Shown: piece by piece, positions 7,183 through 18,524 of the stretch | Numbering within the stretch: the stretch's first letter is position 1 | How the letters are laid out: each line of letters begins with the position of its first letter | Position numbers and translations under genes: made by a program | Notes under the pieces: model-generated | The model's database searches: none | The model's input: only the letters and a program-made list of their open reading frames with translations | What the model was told of the DNA's origin: nothing | Assembly (NCBI GenBank): GCA_015056905.1 | Contig: SVFI01000003.1 | Location: 124,001-188,000, forward strand | Length of the DNA: 64,000 nt | Source: Lachnospiraceae bacterium | Lineage (GTDB): Bacteria; Bacillota; Clostridia; Lachnospirales; Lachnospiraceae | Reading direction: 5' to 3'

Positions 7183-9591
7183 CTACTTCTTCACTTTTAA
7201 TTTCTTATTTCCCTTGTTTTTGAAAAGTTTTTTGTACTTGCTGTAGCTTGCTTTCGGAACTTTTACTTTCAGACTCTTACTCGTATTATAGAATGCATTA
7301 CTTCCCACCTTTTTAATCTTTGTACTCTTAATCACAACCGATTTAAGTTTTTTGCAATCATCAAATGCTCCGGTATTAATATACTTAATATTTTTCCCGA
7401 TTGTAATTTTATTCAGTTTTGTATTGTACCAGAAAGCATATACGCCTATTCCGACCACCTTATATTTCACATTTTTGTACGTAATCGTGTCCGGTATCGT
7501 CACTGTTTTTTTCTGTGTCGTATAATCAAAAACTTCTACCTCCGGCGAAGTTTTGGAAGATGATGTCACAATATAAGTGATTCCACTTTTGGTGATGGTT
7601 TTTCCTTTACTCAGCACGGTTATGGTTGGCGTACTTGGGGCACTTGGTGTGCTCGGTGTGCTCGGTGTGCTAGGCTTACTTGGAGTACTAGGCTTACTTG
7701 GAGTGCTTGGTGTACTCGGTGTGCTTGGTGTACTCGGTGTGCTTGGTGTACTCGGTGTGCTTGGTGTGCTTGGTGTGCTTGGTGTACTCGGTGTGCTTGG
7801 AGTGCTCGGCGTACTCGGTGGTGTGTAGGTTGCTTTATCGATGGTAAAAATCTGCGAAAGTCCGAATGCAGCTGTCCAAGTATGGACATTCGTTCCATCC
7901 ACATTGCTGTAACAATCCAAATCAAGAGCCCTTACTCTGTTACAAACCGGAATCAACATATAAGACTTTCCGTCATAACTGTAAATTTTCCACTTCTGAT
8001 TGTTGGCTCCATGTTCTGTATGTACCATTACATTGGTTCTGTCTGCATCAATTCCCCCATCTAAATCAAGGACCTTTGTCGGTGCGGATACAGAACGAAT
8101 AATGTAACTGTTATCACTCTGTCGTTCAAACTTCCAAAACTGGGCTCCGCTTCCGTTTTTCTTTCTGCCGGAAACATTATCGTTATCGTTTGTGAGTACC
8201 GTCCCGGATGCGCGATTGGTAATGTATGCGGTAAAAGAATCTCCCAGGTTTTGTGAACTTCCGACTAGAGACGCACAGTCAATTCCTGCTGAAGTAACAT
8301 TACCGGCTCCATCATATGCGTAAATATGCGTCGTATATCCAAAAAGCTCATCGTTGTGGGCACTTCTGTTTACCTTATAGCTGTATTCACTTCCGTTTTT
8401 AGTTCCTGAGCAGGAAGGGTTCGTTCCCCAATCTCCTACAATATCATCTTGTCCATTGTAGGAAGTCCACGTCGGAAATTGAACACGGACTATGCCCACC
8501 TCATCCATTACCGTACATCGAACCGTATAACTGTCCACTGTCACATCCGTAATCCTCACATTTGAAATTACCGGCGGCGTCCTGTCAATAAATGAACTGA
8601 TTTCCGCTTTCGCATAATTCCCGCTGCCGTCATACGCATATACATGTGTTCTGTATCTACCTCCTTCATTGTTATGGTCACTGGCTTTCACCCTGAAATA
8701 TACTCTGTCTCCTGAAAAAGTCCCTCTAACTGCACTGTTGGTTTCCCAATTCGGAGCTAAATCGTCCTGCCCGTTCGCTTCTGTCCATGTCGGAAACTGA
8801 ACACGGTTTATATAACCGCTGTTGTCCGTAACACGGAACGATACCGTAAATCCCGTATTGTTCCAATCTGTAATTTGGACCTCGGACAAAACCGGCGGTG
8901 TTGTGTCATTTCCCGTTACTGCATATACGCGATACTTCGTAAAAGAACAACCTGACATAGAATCGTAGCTTCCTGTATACGTGTGTACCGAAGCCGGATT
9001 TGTTGTCCATGATGACCATGAATCTAAAATTACGGGAGTACCCTGATTAAGAGAAGCTGCTCTGCCCACATATGCGGTATGCTCAGAACTTGACAACACG
9101 ATGTAATAGCCTTGACGGATATAATTCATCATGTTCGCTTTATCCGTAGCAGTACTTGACAATGTGTTCGTTGCAACCAGTGTACATTTTCCGCCATACG
9201 AGGATATATAAGAATTAAGGGCCACACCAAAAGAAGTCATTTCATATGCACTGGATGTACTTTTAAAATATCCTTTTCCGATACCCCATGTAAAAAAATC
9301 ATCCGGATTGCTATAGTGTGCATACCCTGCTTCTTTTATCAGTTTCGAAAATGCGGTCACCCTGCAACCGCCGCTTCTCATACCCGTATACTTGGATGCT
9401 CCCTGACTCCAATACTCCCACGCGGAAGAGTACTTGTTACTGCTACTTGATGTGTTTGCTTTTACTTTACTTACGCCGCTGCCTATTTTAACAGTACCGG
9501 CCGTTGCTGTTGTAACATTGACAGCCATAAATAATGTAATTGCAAGTAACATAGAGATATTTCTTATTTTTCTTATTGATTGACTCTTCAT
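7183..9591 (-). CDS. Secreted multidomain protein: signal peptide, C39-like peptidase, two GBS Bsp-like repeats, ricin-type lectin, (STP)n linker, BspA-type LRR
   Basis: N-terminal signal sequence; SGGCRVTAFSKLIKEAGY...SSSEHTAYVGRAA...VILDSWSSW; repeated VQFPTWT..NGQDD; QKWKIYSYDGKSYMLIP ricin repeats; STPSTPSTP tract; ITIGKNIKYINTGAFDDCKKLKSVVIKS LRR_5. Confidence 0.85.
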   Translation of the reverse strand: MKSQSIRKIRNISMLLAITLFMAVNVTTATAGTVKIGSGVSKVKANTSSSSNKYSSAWEYWSQGASKYTGMRSGGCRVTAFSKLIKEAGYAHYSNPDDFFTWGIGKGYFKSTSSAYEMTSFGVALNSYISSYGGKCTLVATNTLSSTATDKANMMNYIRQGYYIVLSSSEHTAYVGRAASLNQGTPVILDSWSSWTTNPASVHTYTGSYDSMSGCSFTKYRVYAVTGNDTTPPVLSEVQITDWNNTGFTVSFRVTDNSGYINRVQFPTWTEANGQDDLAPNWETNSAVRGTFSGDRVYFRVKASDHNNEGGRYRTHVYAYDGSGNYAKAEISSFIDRTPPVISNVRITDVTVDSYTVRCTVMDEVGIVRVQFPTWTSYNGQDDIVGDWGTNPSCSGTKNGSEYSYKVNRSAHNDELFGYTTHIYAYDGAGNVTSAGIDCASLVGSSQNLGDSFTAYITNRASGTVLTNDNDNVSGRKKNGSGAQFWKFERQSDNSYIIRSVSAPTKVLDLDGGIDADRTNVMVHTEHGANNQKWKIYSYDGKSYMLIPVCNRVRALDLDCYSNVDGTNVHTWTAAFGLSQIFTIDKATYTPPSTPSTPSTPSTPSTPSTPSTPSTPSTPSTPSTPSTPSTPSKPSTPSKPSTPSTPSTPSAPSTPTITVLSKGKTITKSGITYIVTSSSKTSPEVEVFDYTTQKKTVTIPDTITYKNVKYKVVGIGVYAFWYNTKLNKITIGKNIKYINTGAFDDCKKLKSVVIKSTKIKKVGSNAFYNTSKSLKVKVPKASYSKYKKLFKNKGNKKLKVKK
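7634..7828 (-). repeat. Low-complexity tandem tract encoding (Ser-Thr/Lys-Pro)n linker
   Basis: 9-nt-periodic imperfect repeats (cttggtgtg/ctcggtgta) inside the 802-aa ORF. Confidence 0.9.
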
Positions 9592-13263: not shown

Positions 13264-13457
13264 TTTTTTCTCCTTATCTGCCGGATAAAAGTTCCTACGC
13301 CTTTATCAGCACACATACCTCTTGATTTTACAATATCAGGCGAAGATTGTAAAGTTTTTGATAGGTTAAGACATTTCACTTATTGAGTTTCCTTCGTTTC
13401 TATGATATAACTATAAACGATGTAATTCGAATCAATGATTATTTTTCGGAGGTAACT

Positions 13458-14639
13458 ATGCCAAATTTAGTTGAACTTGAATCCGCACTTCCGGTTGCAC
13501 CGCTCAAAATTCTTGCTTTAGACAGTTGCAAAGAACTCGGCGACCGCGTCAACGAATATCTTGTGGATTTCCGTAAACATGTAAATAACAATATAAAGGA
13601 AGACCCTGCATTCCGCGAGTATTCGGTAGATAATTATCTGATTAACGCTTCCTGCCCTCGTTTTGGCAGTGGCGAAAGCAAAGGTATCTTAAAAGAATCC
13701 GTGCGTGGCGATGATGTCTTTCTTTTGGTTGATGTTATGAACCACAGCCTTACCTATACAATTAACGGATACGAAAATCACAAATCACCGGATGACCACT
13801 ATCAGGATTTAAAACGTATGATTGCTTCCGTTGCCGGCAAAGCACACCGTATCAACGTTGTAATGCCGTTCCTTTATGAAGGTCGCCAGCACAAAAGAAG
13901 CGGTCGTGAGTCGTTAGACTGTGCTTACGCATTAAAAGAACTCAGCGATATGGGTGTCTCCAACTTTATCACATTTGATGCCCATGATCCTCGTGTTCAG
14001 AATGCGACACCGCTGAAAGGTTTCGATAACTTTACTCCGCCTTATCAGTTTATCCGCTCGCTTCTTCAGTATGAAAAAGATTTGATTATTGATAAAGAGC
14101 ATATGATTGTCATCAGCCCGGACGAAGGTGCTCTCGACAGAGCCGTATACTTCTCCACCGTTCTCGGTGTCGACACAGGTATGTTCTACAAAAGACGCGA
14201 TTACTCTAAGATTGTAAACGGCAAAAATCCGATTGTTGCGCATGAGTTCCTCGGCGACAACATCGAAGGCAAAGATGTCATCATCATCGATGATATGATT
14301 GCATCCGGCGGAAGTATGATTGACACCGCCAAACAGCTCAAAGAGATGAAAGCAAAGCGAGTATTCATCTGCTGCACCTTCGGTCTTTTTACGGAAGGTC
14401 TGAAAGCTTTTGATGAAGCCTACGCTAACGGTACATTTGACCGCGTGGTCTGCACAAACTTAAATTACCTTCCTCAGGAAGTAAAAGACCGCGAATATTT
14501 TGCGGAAGCTGACATGAGCAAATTCCTTGCCAGCATCATCGACTTCATGAACCATGACATTTCCATGGAAAACGTTCTCACTCCGACCGAGAAAATTCAT
14601 GAAATCCTGCGCAAATATAATGAACGTGAAGATGCATAA
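13458..14639 (+). CDS. prs: Ribose-phosphate pyrophosphokinase (long form)
   Basis: MNHSLTYTINGYENHKSPDDHYQDLKRM; VVMPFLYEGRQHKR; VIIIDDMIASGGSMIDTA PRPP loop; RBS ggaggt before ATG at 13458. Confidence 0.88.
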   Translation: MPNLVELESALPVAPLKILALDSCKELGDRVNEYLVDFRKHVNNNIKEDPAFREYSVDNYLINASCPRFGSGESKGILKESVRGDDVFLLVDVMNHSLTYTINGYENHKSPDDHYQDLKRMIASVAGKAHRINVVMPFLYEGRQHKRSGRESLDCAYALKELSDMGVSNFITFDAHDPRVQNATPLKGFDNFTPPYQFIRSLLQYEKDLIIDKEHMIVISPDEGALDRAVYFSTVLGVDTGMFYKRRDYSKIVNGKNPIVAHEFLGDNIEGKDVIIIDDMIASGGSMIDTAKQLKEMKAKRVFICCTFGLFTEGLKAFDEAYANGTFDRVVCTNLNYLPQEVKDREYFAEADMSKFLASIIDFMNHDISMENVLTPTEKIHEILRKYNEREDA

Positions 14640-14685: not shown

Positions 14686-14854
14686 GGCTTGGCTGGGTAT
14701 ATGTAAAATAATTCTTTTATTATACCCAAATTCTATTCCTTTTTTATCATTTTTATCTGGATTGGGTATATACAGTATTCCATCCTTTTCATACCCATAC
14801 ATTTCTAGATTTGTTGGGTATTCTGACAAAATTTATTCGCCTATACCCAGCCCA
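14686..14854 (+). repeat. Copy B1 of the three-unit GGGTAT-N21-ATACCC repeat
   Basis: Units 14695-14727, 14764-14796, 14816-14848, all exact GGGTAT-N21-ATACCC; gaps 36 and 19 nt; ends GGCTTGGCTGGGTAT and ATACCCAGCCC. Confidence 0.8.
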
Positions 14855-14919
14855 ATATTCCTGCTCTTTTTTCATATTTCATACTATATTTCATATTATG
14901 TCAGATTATTAACAGCATT

Positions 14920-15678
14920 TCACATAAAATAATTCTCTATTATCTTCGCAATCTTATCAGAAGAAAGAGGTCTCTCTTTCGTTTCATATGTGGTAATCAG
15001 TTGATGCGAAGGAATAATTCCATGAACCGTATAGAGTTGTAATTTAGAAAAAGTATTCTGTGCATATTCCGGTACATCCATCCTTCCAAAATGCTCCCAA
15101 TAATAGAATTTACCTGTTTTAGGATGACGAATTGTAAAATCCGGATACAGTATGATCTCACCAAGTTCCAAAGCACACTCATATCGAAACGGTATATTCT
15201 TCATATAAAGCATCGTGTCAATCATGCATTCAGACTTGGAACGAACGCAATTTCCGGAACTGCTTTGATGTATCAAATGCTCCGGATATTTTGGATTTCT
15301 CTCATAAGGCTCACAACTCCACTGCACCAGTTCTTCTTCTAATGGTTTAAAATGAGGCTCCAACAAATTTCTATATTCTTGATTCTTCAATAATTTTTCA
15401 GTTTTAGGGAAAATTGGATAATGATTTAAATAGAATTGTATTGCATTTTTTTCTTTTATTTTATCTTCCAGAAGATGGCTTAAGTATGTCTTCCACGCAA
15501 GTTGTTGAGCCAGATGACGATTCTTTTTTGAAATATAAATGTTCTTTTTTCCTGTACTTCGATACCATTTGTAATAGGTACCATTTCGTGCACAAACAAG
15601 TTTTCCTTTCGGAAGATTATTGATTTGCTTTCTTATGTCTGAGATTTGTTTTTGAATTTCCAAAGATTTGATTAACAT
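14920..15678 (-). CDS. Predicted PD-(D/E)XK-superfamily nuclease-like protein
   Basis: VRSKSECMIDTMLYMKNIPFRYECALELGEIILYPDFTIRHPKTGKFYYWEHFGRMD: SE...YPDF...YWEHFG arrangement typical of PD-(D/E)XK-like folds. Confidence 0.6.
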   Translation of the reverse strand: MLIKSLEIQKQISDIRKQINNLPKGKLVCARNGTYYKWYRSTGKKNIYISKKNRHLAQQLAWKTYLSHLLEDKIKEKNAIQFYLNHYPIFPKTEKLLKNQEYRNLLEPHFKPLEEELVQWSCEPYERNPKYPEHLIHQSSSGNCVRSKSECMIDTMLYMKNIPFRYECALELGEIILYPDFTIRHPKTGKFYYWEHFGRMDVPEYAQNTFSKLQLYTVHGIIPSHQLITTYETKERPLSSDKIAKIIENYFM

Positions 15679-15790
15679 TTCTGAATAAATACTATACGAC
15701 CTCCTTTTTTATTTTCTATATAAAACCACTTTTTCAATTTGATGTCAACTCCAAAAATCAAAATTTTTTTAAATTAATTTTCAAATTAAT

Positions 15791-15956
15791 AGCTTTGGGT
15801 ATATACAAAATTTGTTTTCAAAATTACCCAATAAATGTACATAATTACCATTATTTTTAAGTCTATTTCTATATACAGAATTTCTTCATAAAAATACCCG
15901 GGATTTTGACAAAATCCCGGGTATTACACTCAACTTTTTCCCTATATACCCAAGCC
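15791..15956 (+). repeat. Copy B2 of the three-unit GGGTAT-N21-ATACCC repeat
   Basis: Units 15797-15829 (GGGTAT..TTACCC), 15867-15899 (degenerate left half..ATACCC), 15919-15951 (GGGTAT..ATACCC); gaps 37 and 19 nt; ends AGCTTTGGGTATATA / TATATACCCAAGCC. Confidence 0.75.
15893..15925 (-). terminator. Perfect 16-bp hairpin embedded in repeat copy B2; likely terminator for the histidine kinase gene
   Basis: AATACCCGGGATTTTG-a-CAAAATCCCGGGTATT, T-run on minus strand. Confidence 0.6.
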
Positions 15957-15983: not shown

Positions 15984-18524
15984 TCAGCTCTTCCTCGGAA
16001 ACGTAAGAACCACCTTAAACAAATCTCCATCCAGATGAATCTTGAACTCTCCGCCCTGTGCTACTGTCAGATTTTGGGCAATGGAAAGTCCGAGTCCGCT
16101 TCCCTCCGTGCTACGCGAAACATCGCCGCGAATAAATCGCTCCGTCAGTTCCTCCGCCGGAATGTTGAGAGGTTGTGCGGAAATATTTCGGAATATAATT
16201 TCAACATTTTCAGAATGCGCATCAACATCCACATAAACGCGTGTGCCTTCCATCGCGTATTTACAGATGTTAAGGAGCAGATTTTCCACCACGCGCCACA
16301 TACGCCGCGAATCCGCACGAATCATAACATCCGTATCCGGATACGACTCTACTAGCACAAGTTTCTTTTCCTCCATTTTATCTTTGTACTCTCCCGTTGC
16401 CTGTGCCAGCAGCTCTTTTACATGAATGTCGCTCATCTCAAGCGTGATGTTTCCTGATGATATCTTGCTTGCTTCCACAAGGTCAAGTGTGAGCTGTTTT
16501 AAACGCTGCGATTTTTCGTCGAGAATACGGATGTACTCCTGCGCCTTTTCTCCCTGAATGTTTTCGCGTTTGAGCAAATCAACATAATTGATAATAGATG
16601 TCAGCGGAGTTTTGATGTCGTGCGATACATTGGTGATAAGGTCCGCCTTGAGGCGCTCATCTTTCATGCTGATCTGCACAGCTGTTTTTACCGCATCACC
16701 GATTTTGTTGACTGCTTCCGCAATCACTTTGTTTTCTCCGAAAAACTTGCTTGTATCAATCTGATATTCCACCTCACCGTCGCATATGCGGCTAATACCT
16801 GCTACGATTTCTTCGCGCGCCACATTCTCAAAATAGAGGTAAACAGCAACCGCCACATCAAACGCACATGCGAGAAAAATACCGAATACGCGGAACACAA
16901 GAATCAATACTGCATTCATAAACAGGAACATGCAGTAAGGTCCGAATGTTCTGACAAAAAACAACTTGTTGTTCACAAGCTCTTCCACCACTCTGCGAAT
17001 CAGCATCAGCAGTTTCCCGCAAAGTCTCTTTGTATTATGAAGAATATAGTAACATAAACTTCCTTTCCAAAGGGCATGTGCTTTCACCCTTCGAACCAGC
17101 GATCCCATATAGAGCAGGAACATCAGATATAAAACAGAAAATGTCACGAACAAACTGACACCAAATCCCCTACGACTCTGCTCCATCGATATTCCCGTAA
17201 GTATATCTCTGTCAATAAATACAGAAACTGCAAGTGCTCCGAGGCCGATAACTGCACATACAGTTGCAGCAACAAAGATGATGGCAATCTCCGTAAACCA
17301 GCGATCAAAATATTTAAGTTCTTCTCGCTCTTTTTTGGGTTGAAATACAACAAATACCACAAGAGCAATCAACGACAATAAACCAAGTACTGCGGCAAAT
17401 CCCAACATCTTTTGCCACGAAACATCTACCGTTTTGAGGTTCGTATCCGCTAACGCATAAAAATCCACGTCATTATATGGACCGAATGCACTCGATGATT
17501 TTGTCTGTAATGCCACATACACAGTTCCCCCGTGTGTAAAACAATAATCATAGTTACGGAAATGCTGCTTGCAATAAGATACATGATCCGTCATCAGATT
17601 ACTGCTTTTAAAATCGTTGCTGCCATAATCATACACCATATATGTTTTGCACTGTGTGAATGCTTCCTTTAATTCCTCCACAGAAAGATTTTCTTTATTT
17701 TCCAAATTCGTATACGCAATCTCTCCGGTCGGCGCTACATACATATATTTCAGATTACTGTCAGATGACAAAATCTCTTTTTTGTTTACATACTCATAAT
17801 AGTTTGTGTGCAAATCTTGAGCAGTCTGCTGCAACGCCTCTATTGCATCCTGTGTCCCCATTCCCTCAGGAAGCACCAAATCATACACACTCTCCATATT
17901 CTGCGGCGCAAACTCCTCCTCCAGAAAACACACCTGATACAAATAGTCCTCCAACAACAGTTCATCGACCGGCAGTTCTCCCGTCTGCTCCTGTATCTGC
18001 TCTTCCATCTGTTCCTTCGTCAGATACTGCTTTGCCTCATCATACGACACCTCAGGAGAAGACCACCAAGAAATGCCATATTGGAACCATTCTACAAGAT
18101 CTCCTACACGATACTCCAATTTCGGTTCATTATTTAATTCCGCCGTGGAATTTCTTCGATTTACATACTTAAACACATCCACCTTGCGCCCCGGGTTATA
18201 TTCCCCATCCGTCTCAAGCTGCGAACAGAGTGCAAGATAATGAGACAAATTCATCAAGTCCCTCTGTAACACATACTGAAATGTCTGTGTATCTTCAAAG
18301 TTATGTGCTTCCTCATACGGCGAAATCATATAAGAGCCATAATATTCATGAAGGACAACATATCTCATTGCAACCAGCAACAGAACAACAGCCATTGCCA
18401 TTGCAAAAATCTGCGAAAGAACTGCAGACACATTTTTTACCGCTTTTTTATTCAAATTCCCTTTTTTATGTTCACTCATCTTAATTCTCCTACTTTTCAA
18501 TCTTATATCCGACACCCCAGACAA
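15984..18524 (-). CDS. Sensor histidine kinase
   Basis: H box LITNVSHDIKTPLTSIINYVDLL; N box NLLLNICKY; G2 box STEGSGLGLSIAQ; multiple TM segments; start probably MSEHKKGN. Confidence 0.9.
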   Translation of the reverse strand: MSGVSDIRLKSRRIKMSEHKKGNLNKKAVKNVSAVLSQIFAMAMAVVLLLVAMRYVVLHEYYGSYMISPYEEAHNFEDTQTFQYVLQRDLMNLSHYLALCSQLETDGEYNPGRKVDVFKYVNRRNSTAELNNEPKLEYRVGDLVEWFQYGISWWSSPEVSYDEAKQYLTKEQMEEQIQEQTGELPVDELLLEDYLYQVCFLEEEFAPQNMESVYDLVLPEGMGTQDAIEALQQTAQDLHTNYYEYVNKKEILSSDSNLKYMYVAPTGEIAYTNLENKENLSVEELKEAFTQCKTYMVYDYGSNDFKSSNLMTDHVSYCKQHFRNYDYCFTHGGTVYVALQTKSSSAFGPYNDVDFYALADTNLKTVDVSWQKMLGFAAVLGLLSLIALVVFVVFQPKKEREELKYFDRWFTEIAIIFVAATVCAVIGLGALAVSVFIDRDILTGISMEQSRRGFGVSLFVTFSVLYLMFLLYMGSLVRRVKAHALWKGSLCYYILHNTKRLCGKLLMLIRRVVEELVNNKLFFVRTFGPYCMFLFMNAVLILVFRVFGIFLACAFDVAVAVYLYFENVAREEIVAGISRICDGEVEYQIDTSKFFGENKVIAEAVNKIGDAVKTAVQISMKDERLKADLITNVSHDIKTPLTSIINYVDLLKRENIQGEKAQEYIRILDEKSQRLKQLTLDLVEASKISSGNITLEMSDIHVKELLAQATGEYKDKMEEKKLVLVESYPDTDVMIRADSRRMWRVVENLLLNICKYAMEGTRVYVDVDAHSENVEIIFRNISAQPLNIPAEELTERFIRGDVSRSTEGSGLGLSIAQNLTVAQGGEFKIHLDGDLFKVVLTFPRKS

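Follow-up and report, generated by a model that had tools for sequence, protein, structure and literature searches.

What is a nuclease-like gene doing between a prs-type gene and a sensor histidine kinase gene, with a structured repeat on each side of it? The locus lies in a stretch of 64,000 nucleotides from a Lachnospiraceae bacterium (GCA_015056905.1, contig SVFI01000003.1, positions 124,001 to 188,000 of the forward strand), which we call the window. A sequence-only reading had taken the gene and its two flanking repeats, B1 and B2, for a candidate mobile cassette. Its coordinates for all three are exact to the base (Table 1). B1 and B2 have the same internal layout and orientation, as it had said: each is about 155 bp long, with units offset by about 70 and then about 52 bp. 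The third, solo copy is indeed in the opposite orientation, and its offsets of 50 and then 71 bp are the B1/B2 layout reversed. The interval is also more AT-rich than its surroundings (GC of 0.30-0.34 vs 0.40-0.47 in most neighbouring windows). One qualification concerns the word copies. B1 and B2 have arms and geometry in common, but their spacers are largely unrelated, so they are not close sequence copies.

Table 1. The nuclease locus, its flanking genes and the cassettes of the window, in window positions
Feature	Positions	Strand	Basis
Nuclease gene, PD-(D/E)XK-type, unnamed family, 252 aa	14920-15678	minus	ORF; conserved residues, AlphaFold, PADLOC domain
Cassette B1, three GGGTAT-N21-ATACCC units: 14695-14727, 14764-14796, 14816-14848	14695-14848	plus	arms exact, offsets 69 and 52
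Cassette B2, units 15797-15829 (one arm mismatch), 15867-15899 (degenerate middle unit, left arm lost), 15919-15951	15797-15951	plus	layout and orientation as in B1
Solo cassette, 33-bp set, units 1875-1907 (left arm GGGCAC), 1925-1957, 1996-2028 (right arm degenerate)	1875-2028	minus	mirrored layout
prs-type gene, left flank of the probable insertion site	13383-14639	plus	neighbour of the kinase gene, nuclease absent, in 12 other genera
Sensor histidine kinase gene, right flank of the probable insertion site	15984-18524	minus	neighbour of prs, nuclease absent, in 12 other genera

The protein has homologues in 98 of 299 Lachnospiraceae genomes, about a third, with up to 8 per genome. RSKSE (R-S-K-x-E), YE, PDF, H-x-G and a C-terminal E are invariant in 69 members. 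D180 is invariant too, E195 is nearly so, and E150 lies on the preceding helix. The family lacks the canonical lysine of E-X-K, and we infer that K148 or K212 may replace it. Pfam and NCBIfam have no consistent family and no curated model for the nuclease and its 69 relatives, and a PDB sequence search with the nuclease returned no match. The C-terminal nuclease domain (residues ~127-251) is common to the PADLOC candidates PDC-S68/S69 and HEAT_CxxC_PDDEXK, and it also occurs in plasmid AAA/RecD-like ATPases. As to the nuclease fold that had been proposed, the AlphaFold model is confident (pLDDT of 95) and one of the PADLOC models with the domain is labelled PDDEXK; Foldseek listed restriction-like enzymes for the whole protein, none of them significant. 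The N-terminal domain had no significant Foldseek match either, and our guess that it was an AP2/arm-type DNA-binding domain was dropped.

In a 300-genome sample of the phylum, the standalone form of about 255 aa, with its own N-terminal domain, is found only in Lachnospiraceae; outside this family the sample held just the C-terminal domain and no full-length nuclease. A search of phages and plasmids gave three unannotated faecal contigs and otherwise C-terminal domains of AAA/RecD-like proteins. No partner gene, whether a methylase, an antitoxin, a Tns-like gene or another, recurs across 76 nuclease loci. It must be noted that a comEC-like gene (DNA-uptake channel) lies just upstream of the nuclease on the same strand, 333-609 bp away, at 9 of the 76 loci (L019, L037, L038, L043, L067, L074, L083, L085, L088), in most of them with repeats in between. 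The nucleases in this niche belong to more than one clade, and their arms differ. The nuclease follows rplM-rpsI in L061, L065, L071 and L084, and ppdK in L059, L068, L082 and L087.

A motif count over the source genome, of which targeted stretches were read, extends the repeat well beyond the window. The motif GGGTAT-N12-30-ATACCC has 40 matches in this 2.35-Mb genome vs 1 for the reversed control, and GGGTAT-N20-23-ATACCC has 40 vs 0. The unit is 33-34 bp long in 38 of the 40 matches despite differing spacers. Relaxed matching groups these matches into about 28 cassettes, each with three units at most, at offsets of about 50-52, 69-72 or 82-83 bp. The same genome has five nuclease homologues. 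The closest paralogue of the window nuclease (C31:87007, 51% identical) also has cassettes on both flanks. Set A, T-GGGTAT-N21-ATACCC-A, is 33 bp long, comprises 6 cassettes and adjoins the window nuclease. Set B, CG-GGGTAT-N22-ATACCC-CG, is 34 bp long with the arm CGGGGTAT, comprises about 22 cassettes and adjoins the paralogue. Two paralogues in one genome own two distinguishable cassette sets, one of 33 and one of 34 bp. About 20 cassettes of set B and 4 of set A are dispersed; they are intergenic, distant from the nuclease and mostly adjoin the 3' ends of genes. Homology is seen between set B cassettes from unrelated sites, the best pairs being roughly 75-80% identical, and the similarity stops near the terminal arms GCGGGGTAT/ATACCCCGC. 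Of two further nuclease homologues, the one at C31:64758 adjoins repeats with AGTCGG arms and the one at C18:103553 adjoins weaker repeats of a GATAA type.

The pairing of nuclease and repeat is not peculiar to this genome. We scanned for 5-bp arms of whatever sequence that come back as a pair at a constant length, and set the threshold at three or more such units no further than 900 bp from the ORF. Forty-two of the 76 nuclease loci pass, as does 1 of 74 more distant control windows (Fisher p=5e-15), and that lone positive control window is itself such an array. Among the 34 loci below the threshold some lie at contig ends or have imperfect units (L052 and L027, by eye). Many relatives have their units in tandem arrays with a period of 52-54, 61-64 or 71-75 bp and up to about 20 units. 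These arrays are mostly upstream of the nuclease gene and often single-sided, though either orientation and two-sided placement also occur. Judged across these loci, the two-copy bracketing in the window is one form of a wider theme of arrays and clusters. CRISPR-like acquired spacers were considered and dropped, since many of the arrays are simple tandem duplications. L070 has a second array (1249-1801 in oriented coordinates, arms CAGTAT/ATACTG, period of about 73 bp) some 3 kb from the nuclease and its array, whose arms differ; it is thus another repeat set of that region.

Some close relatives have arms in common: TGGGTAT in L016, L023 and L025, TGGGCA in L028 and L030, AGTCGG in L019 and L074, and TTACGG in L061 and L076. 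The more distant two nuclease proteins are, the less alike are their arms (Mantel r=-0.24, p=0.0002, n=43), a correlation that is weak beyond close relatives and drawn from loci that are not phylogenetically independent. Other close nuclease pairs have different arms, so the arms must change fast. On this comparison of sequences the arms are particular to each nuclease lineage.

The spacing of the units gives another line of reasoning. Centre-to-centre distances between units match whole numbers of helical turns, with R=0.65 for a turn of 10.25-10.5 bp (p~2e-9) and a mean phase near zero. This points to recognition of the units as duplex DNA. The spacers of set B have a weak symmetry, being purine-rich on the left, AT-rich in the centre and pyrimidine-rich on the right. 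Internal pairing of spacers is slightly above that of shuffled ones (153 vs 126 pairs, p=0.003). The excess is due to a few near-perfect palindromes, and most spacers pair no more than shuffled halves do. Because of common descent among the loci, the p-values for phasing and pairing are both optimistic. Spacing and spacers fit a protein on duplex DNA with a flexible centre, and cruciforms are compatible with them. Rfam has no match near the cut-off for the repeats.

Across genomes, GGGTAT units are abundant only where this nuclease subfamily is present. There are 40 in the source genome, 31 in G221, 8 in G235, 7 in G086 and 6 in G200. Every other genome has at most 4, where the reversed control gives 0-5. 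The four other genomes with at least 6 units are all among the 18 that hold a nuclease at least about 44% identical (p=1e-5). The main counter-evidence to the pairing is G221. It has about 13 dispersed GGGTAT triplets (L146-L172) with the same 71/52 geometry, and GGGTAT repeats adjoin the nuclease at none of the five nuclease loci examined there. These cassettes may be orphans whose cognate nuclease has disappeared, that nuclease may have been overlooked, or the repeats may depend on it less strictly than we propose.

The congener G200 is the natural place to look for empty cassette sites. At the syntenic B locus its neighbouring genes are 80-88% identical and its nuclease 48%. The arms beside this diverged orthologous nuclease have changed to CGGGGCAT, and there are few cassettes genome-wide. 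Four cassette sites of the source genome were examined in G200 and none has a cassette; two of the intergenic intervals are shorter and two hold unrelated sequence. This comparison cannot by itself tell cassette gain from loss. The terminal motif is GCGGGGTAT/ATACCCCGC, and against so diverged a congener neither an insertion at junction level nor a target duplication was seen. Two other guides were tried and rejected. A near-identical cassette pair in G221 does not mark the element ends, as its duplication of more than 400 bp runs past the cassette. We did not take the flank motif TTATGTAAACC for a target signature: it occurs near several cassettes (L096, L097, L098, L102 and others) but also away from them. 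It is absent from most of the 64-kb window.

The prs and kinase genes flank the nuclease in the source genome, G200 and L021 (nuclease 56-68% and prs 91-94% identical). The two genes are adjacent without it in 12 other genera, and the seven prs-kinase gaps read among these all lack a cassette. Since 12 genera are without it, the block is most simply an insertion, with the direction inferred from the majority state. It must be an old and inherited one because it is common to three genomes. Empty sites therefore exist, as the sequence-only reading had expected. Given these sites and the co-occurrence described above, the order prs-nuclease-kinase is not fully conserved, nor are the repeats uncorrelated with the nuclease. 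The idea of a mobile cassette is partly supported: dispersal of the repeats is seen by comparison, but the cassette-nuclease-cassette block as a whole may no longer move. It is the cassette that seems to be mobile, and the nuclease seems to stay at a few fixed sites.

We argue, with somewhat more confidence than doubt, that the nuclease and its repeats are a cognate pair and that the repeats spread within genomes, much as in REPIN/RAYT but with an unrelated enzyme and repeat architecture. A dispersing nuclease-associated family around a protein that is not an HUH enzyme had been suggested from the window, and the family-wide association, the arms that track lineage and the absence of a cassette at all four congener sites bear this out. 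Comparison establishes the association, the lineage-specific arms, the helical phasing, the dispersed copies and their lineage-specific presence; binding, cleavage and copying are proposed on top of these. The scheme runs as follows. Each PD-(D/E)XK-type nuclease would own one inverted-repeat unit, with conserved 5-8-bp arms about 20-24 bp apart and a centre that is otherwise free (AT-rich in the examined set). A nuclease dimer would read both arms of one unit in duplex DNA. Units whole helical turns apart would let several dimers assemble on one face of the DNA, on three units in a cassette and up to about 20 in an array. The nuclease would then cut at or near its own units, and repair would copy cassettes to new intergenic sites or grow arrays via unequal exchange. 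In this way the repeats would maintain themselves as short stretches of mobile DNA that are not autonomous but rely in trans on a nuclease gene present at a few places in the chromosome.

The strongest competitor of this cognate-pair explanation is an operator or decoy in a defence-like system. One can imagine a scenario where the nuclease binds the arrays, represses its own gene and is held harmless until it is released or redirected against invading DNA. The dispersed cassettes would be extra sinks, and the whole a defence or toxin-like module. Tandem arrays that lie mostly upstream of the gene are what this predicts, helical phasing suits stable protein arrays, and the nuclease domain does occur in the candidate defence proteins PDC-S68/S69 and in AAA/RecD-like ATPases. 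However, an operator does not require arrays of up to about 20 units, or cassettes on both sides of the gene as at the window locus and several others. It does not account for dispersed cassettes far from the nuclease and mostly by gene 3' ends, and the methylase or antitoxin-type partner does not recur. We regard this scenario as unlikely. It is harder still to see the units as sites of benefit to the host, marking the chromosome for its organisation, replication, repair or uptake, with the nuclease as a housekeeping enzyme. In its favour, the spacers drift but the arms and their spacing do not, and niches do recur (comEC at 9 of 76 loci, rplM-rpsI and ppdK at 4 each). A housekeeping enzyme should not be confined to about a third of the family's genomes, though, and its sites should not be lineage-specific, as the examined cassette sites are. 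Nor should their arms differ between congeners at an orthologous locus, or their number range from two flanking cassettes to more than 20. We consider this improbable.

Two further scenarios seem to us very improbable. In one, transcripts of the arrays would form hairpin RNAs that hold the nuclease in check or direct it, in the manner of a type III toxin-antitoxin or a guide RNA. Repeats of about 34 nt in arrays upstream of the nuclease would suit this, as would the small excess of pairing in the spacers (153 vs 126, p=0.003). Yet the offsets track DNA helical turns across families and most spacers are unpaired. The orientation of the arrays also varies, they can lie on both sides of the gene, solo cassettes are scattered with no nuclease beside them, and Rfam gave no match near its cut-off. 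Equally remote is the scenario where the repeats are just ordinary MITE-like elements in decay, unrelated in origin, with the nuclease as a passenger. The copies are short, intergenic, AT-rich and degenerate, and no active transposition was seen. A passenger does not explain why the pairing turns up again and again with so many arm sequences, why arms track nuclease lineage, or why two paralogues in one genome have two matching sets.

It is worth comparing the nuclease and its repeats with known systems. REPINs are REP doublets that form hairpins, and they go with REP-associated tyrosine transposases, or RAYTs (PMC3116915). The likeness to the Lachnospiraceae system is close: several enzymes per genome each sit beside their own class of palindromic repeat, with clusters and tandem arrays by the enzyme and many solo intergenic copies. 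The enzymes are at recurrent inherited sites, and enzyme and repeat co-evolve. REPINs are thought to be served in trans by RAYT. However, RAYT is a Y1 HUH tyrosine transposase related to IS200/IS605 and our enzyme is of the PD-(D/E)XK type; no Y1 HUH transposase model in Pfam or NCBIfam matches it. The unit here is two short arms at a fixed distance with a free centre, not an imperfect palindromic REP, nor a doublet of REPs that folds into a long hairpin. Few units are near-perfect palindromes, and the units are helically phased in triplets or in tandem arrays of 52-75 bp. Enzyme superfamily and repeat structure were both tested and both differ, so this pair is not a member of REPIN/RAYT.

Other known systems are alike in part. 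MITEs and other non-autonomous transposon derivatives are also short (~155-170 bp here), dispersed and intergenic, have inverted end motifs and are presumably moved in trans. Our cassettes have no DDE transposase, their internal units repeat the end motif, and arms and spacing are kept while the sequence is not. Homing endonuclease genes likewise combine a nuclease with cognate chromosomal sites, and the block is absent from the same site in relatives. Here intact units lie on both sides and the gene does not interrupt a recognition site; there are many chromosomal sites, and the nuclease gene lies outside introns, inteins and conserved genes. Tn7-type elements with TnsA have a restriction-fold nuclease and ends of about 150 bp that hold several protein sites. 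A putative restriction-fold nuclease and repeat-bearing flanks of about 150 bp are similar, but no TnsB/TnsC-like partner gene recurs in the 76 loci, the flanking cassettes at the window locus are in direct orientation, and most cassettes are solo. The PADLOC candidates PDC-S68/S69 and HEAT_CxxC_PDDEXK have the C-terminal nuclease domain in common with ours but are mostly larger multidomain proteins (S68 is ~1200 aa), not standalone ones of ~255 aa. ToxIN-like type III toxin-antitoxin systems also have a nuclease with adjoining repeats of about 35 nt. Our nuclease has no ToxN/AbiQ-like endoribonuclease match in Pfam, NCBIfam or PADLOC, and its repeats are dispersed, in either orientation, with a spacing that suits the DNA helix and not an RNA array.

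Is this an undescribed class of intragenomic mobile DNA, where PD-(D/E)XK-type nucleases each disperse their own cassettes by cut-and-repair while arm specificity co-evolves? It would be an independent counterpart of REPIN/RAYT on a restriction-type enzyme, and we are evenly divided on that claim. Enzyme family and repeat architecture both matched nothing described; the population-level logic has precedent. In the open-access literature, which is what our searches covered, RAYT was the one nuclease-linked family of palindromic repeats that turned up. If the claim is true, an enzyme with its own dispersed repeats arose twice, the second time around a restriction-type nuclease and not just around HUH transposases. 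Such pairs would be widespread in Lachnospiraceae, a dominant gut family, and would account for one kind of intergenic repeat and tandem array found in its genomes. It would also become possible to test how a cell copes with a nuclease that seems to be active and has tens of sites in the chromosome. The family would offer dozens of natural enzyme/site pairs with a changing but readable specificity, a set for learning how nucleases change sites.

Two minor features of the window complete the description. A near-perfect hairpin, ATACCCGGGATTTTG-a-CAAAATCCCGGGTAT, lies at 15894-15924 between B2 units 2 and 3 and is possibly a terminator; a similar one is found at C1:13380-13440. At 7617-7832 a 9-bp tandem repeat encodes the Ser-Thr-Pro linker of an 802-aa secreted-type protein.
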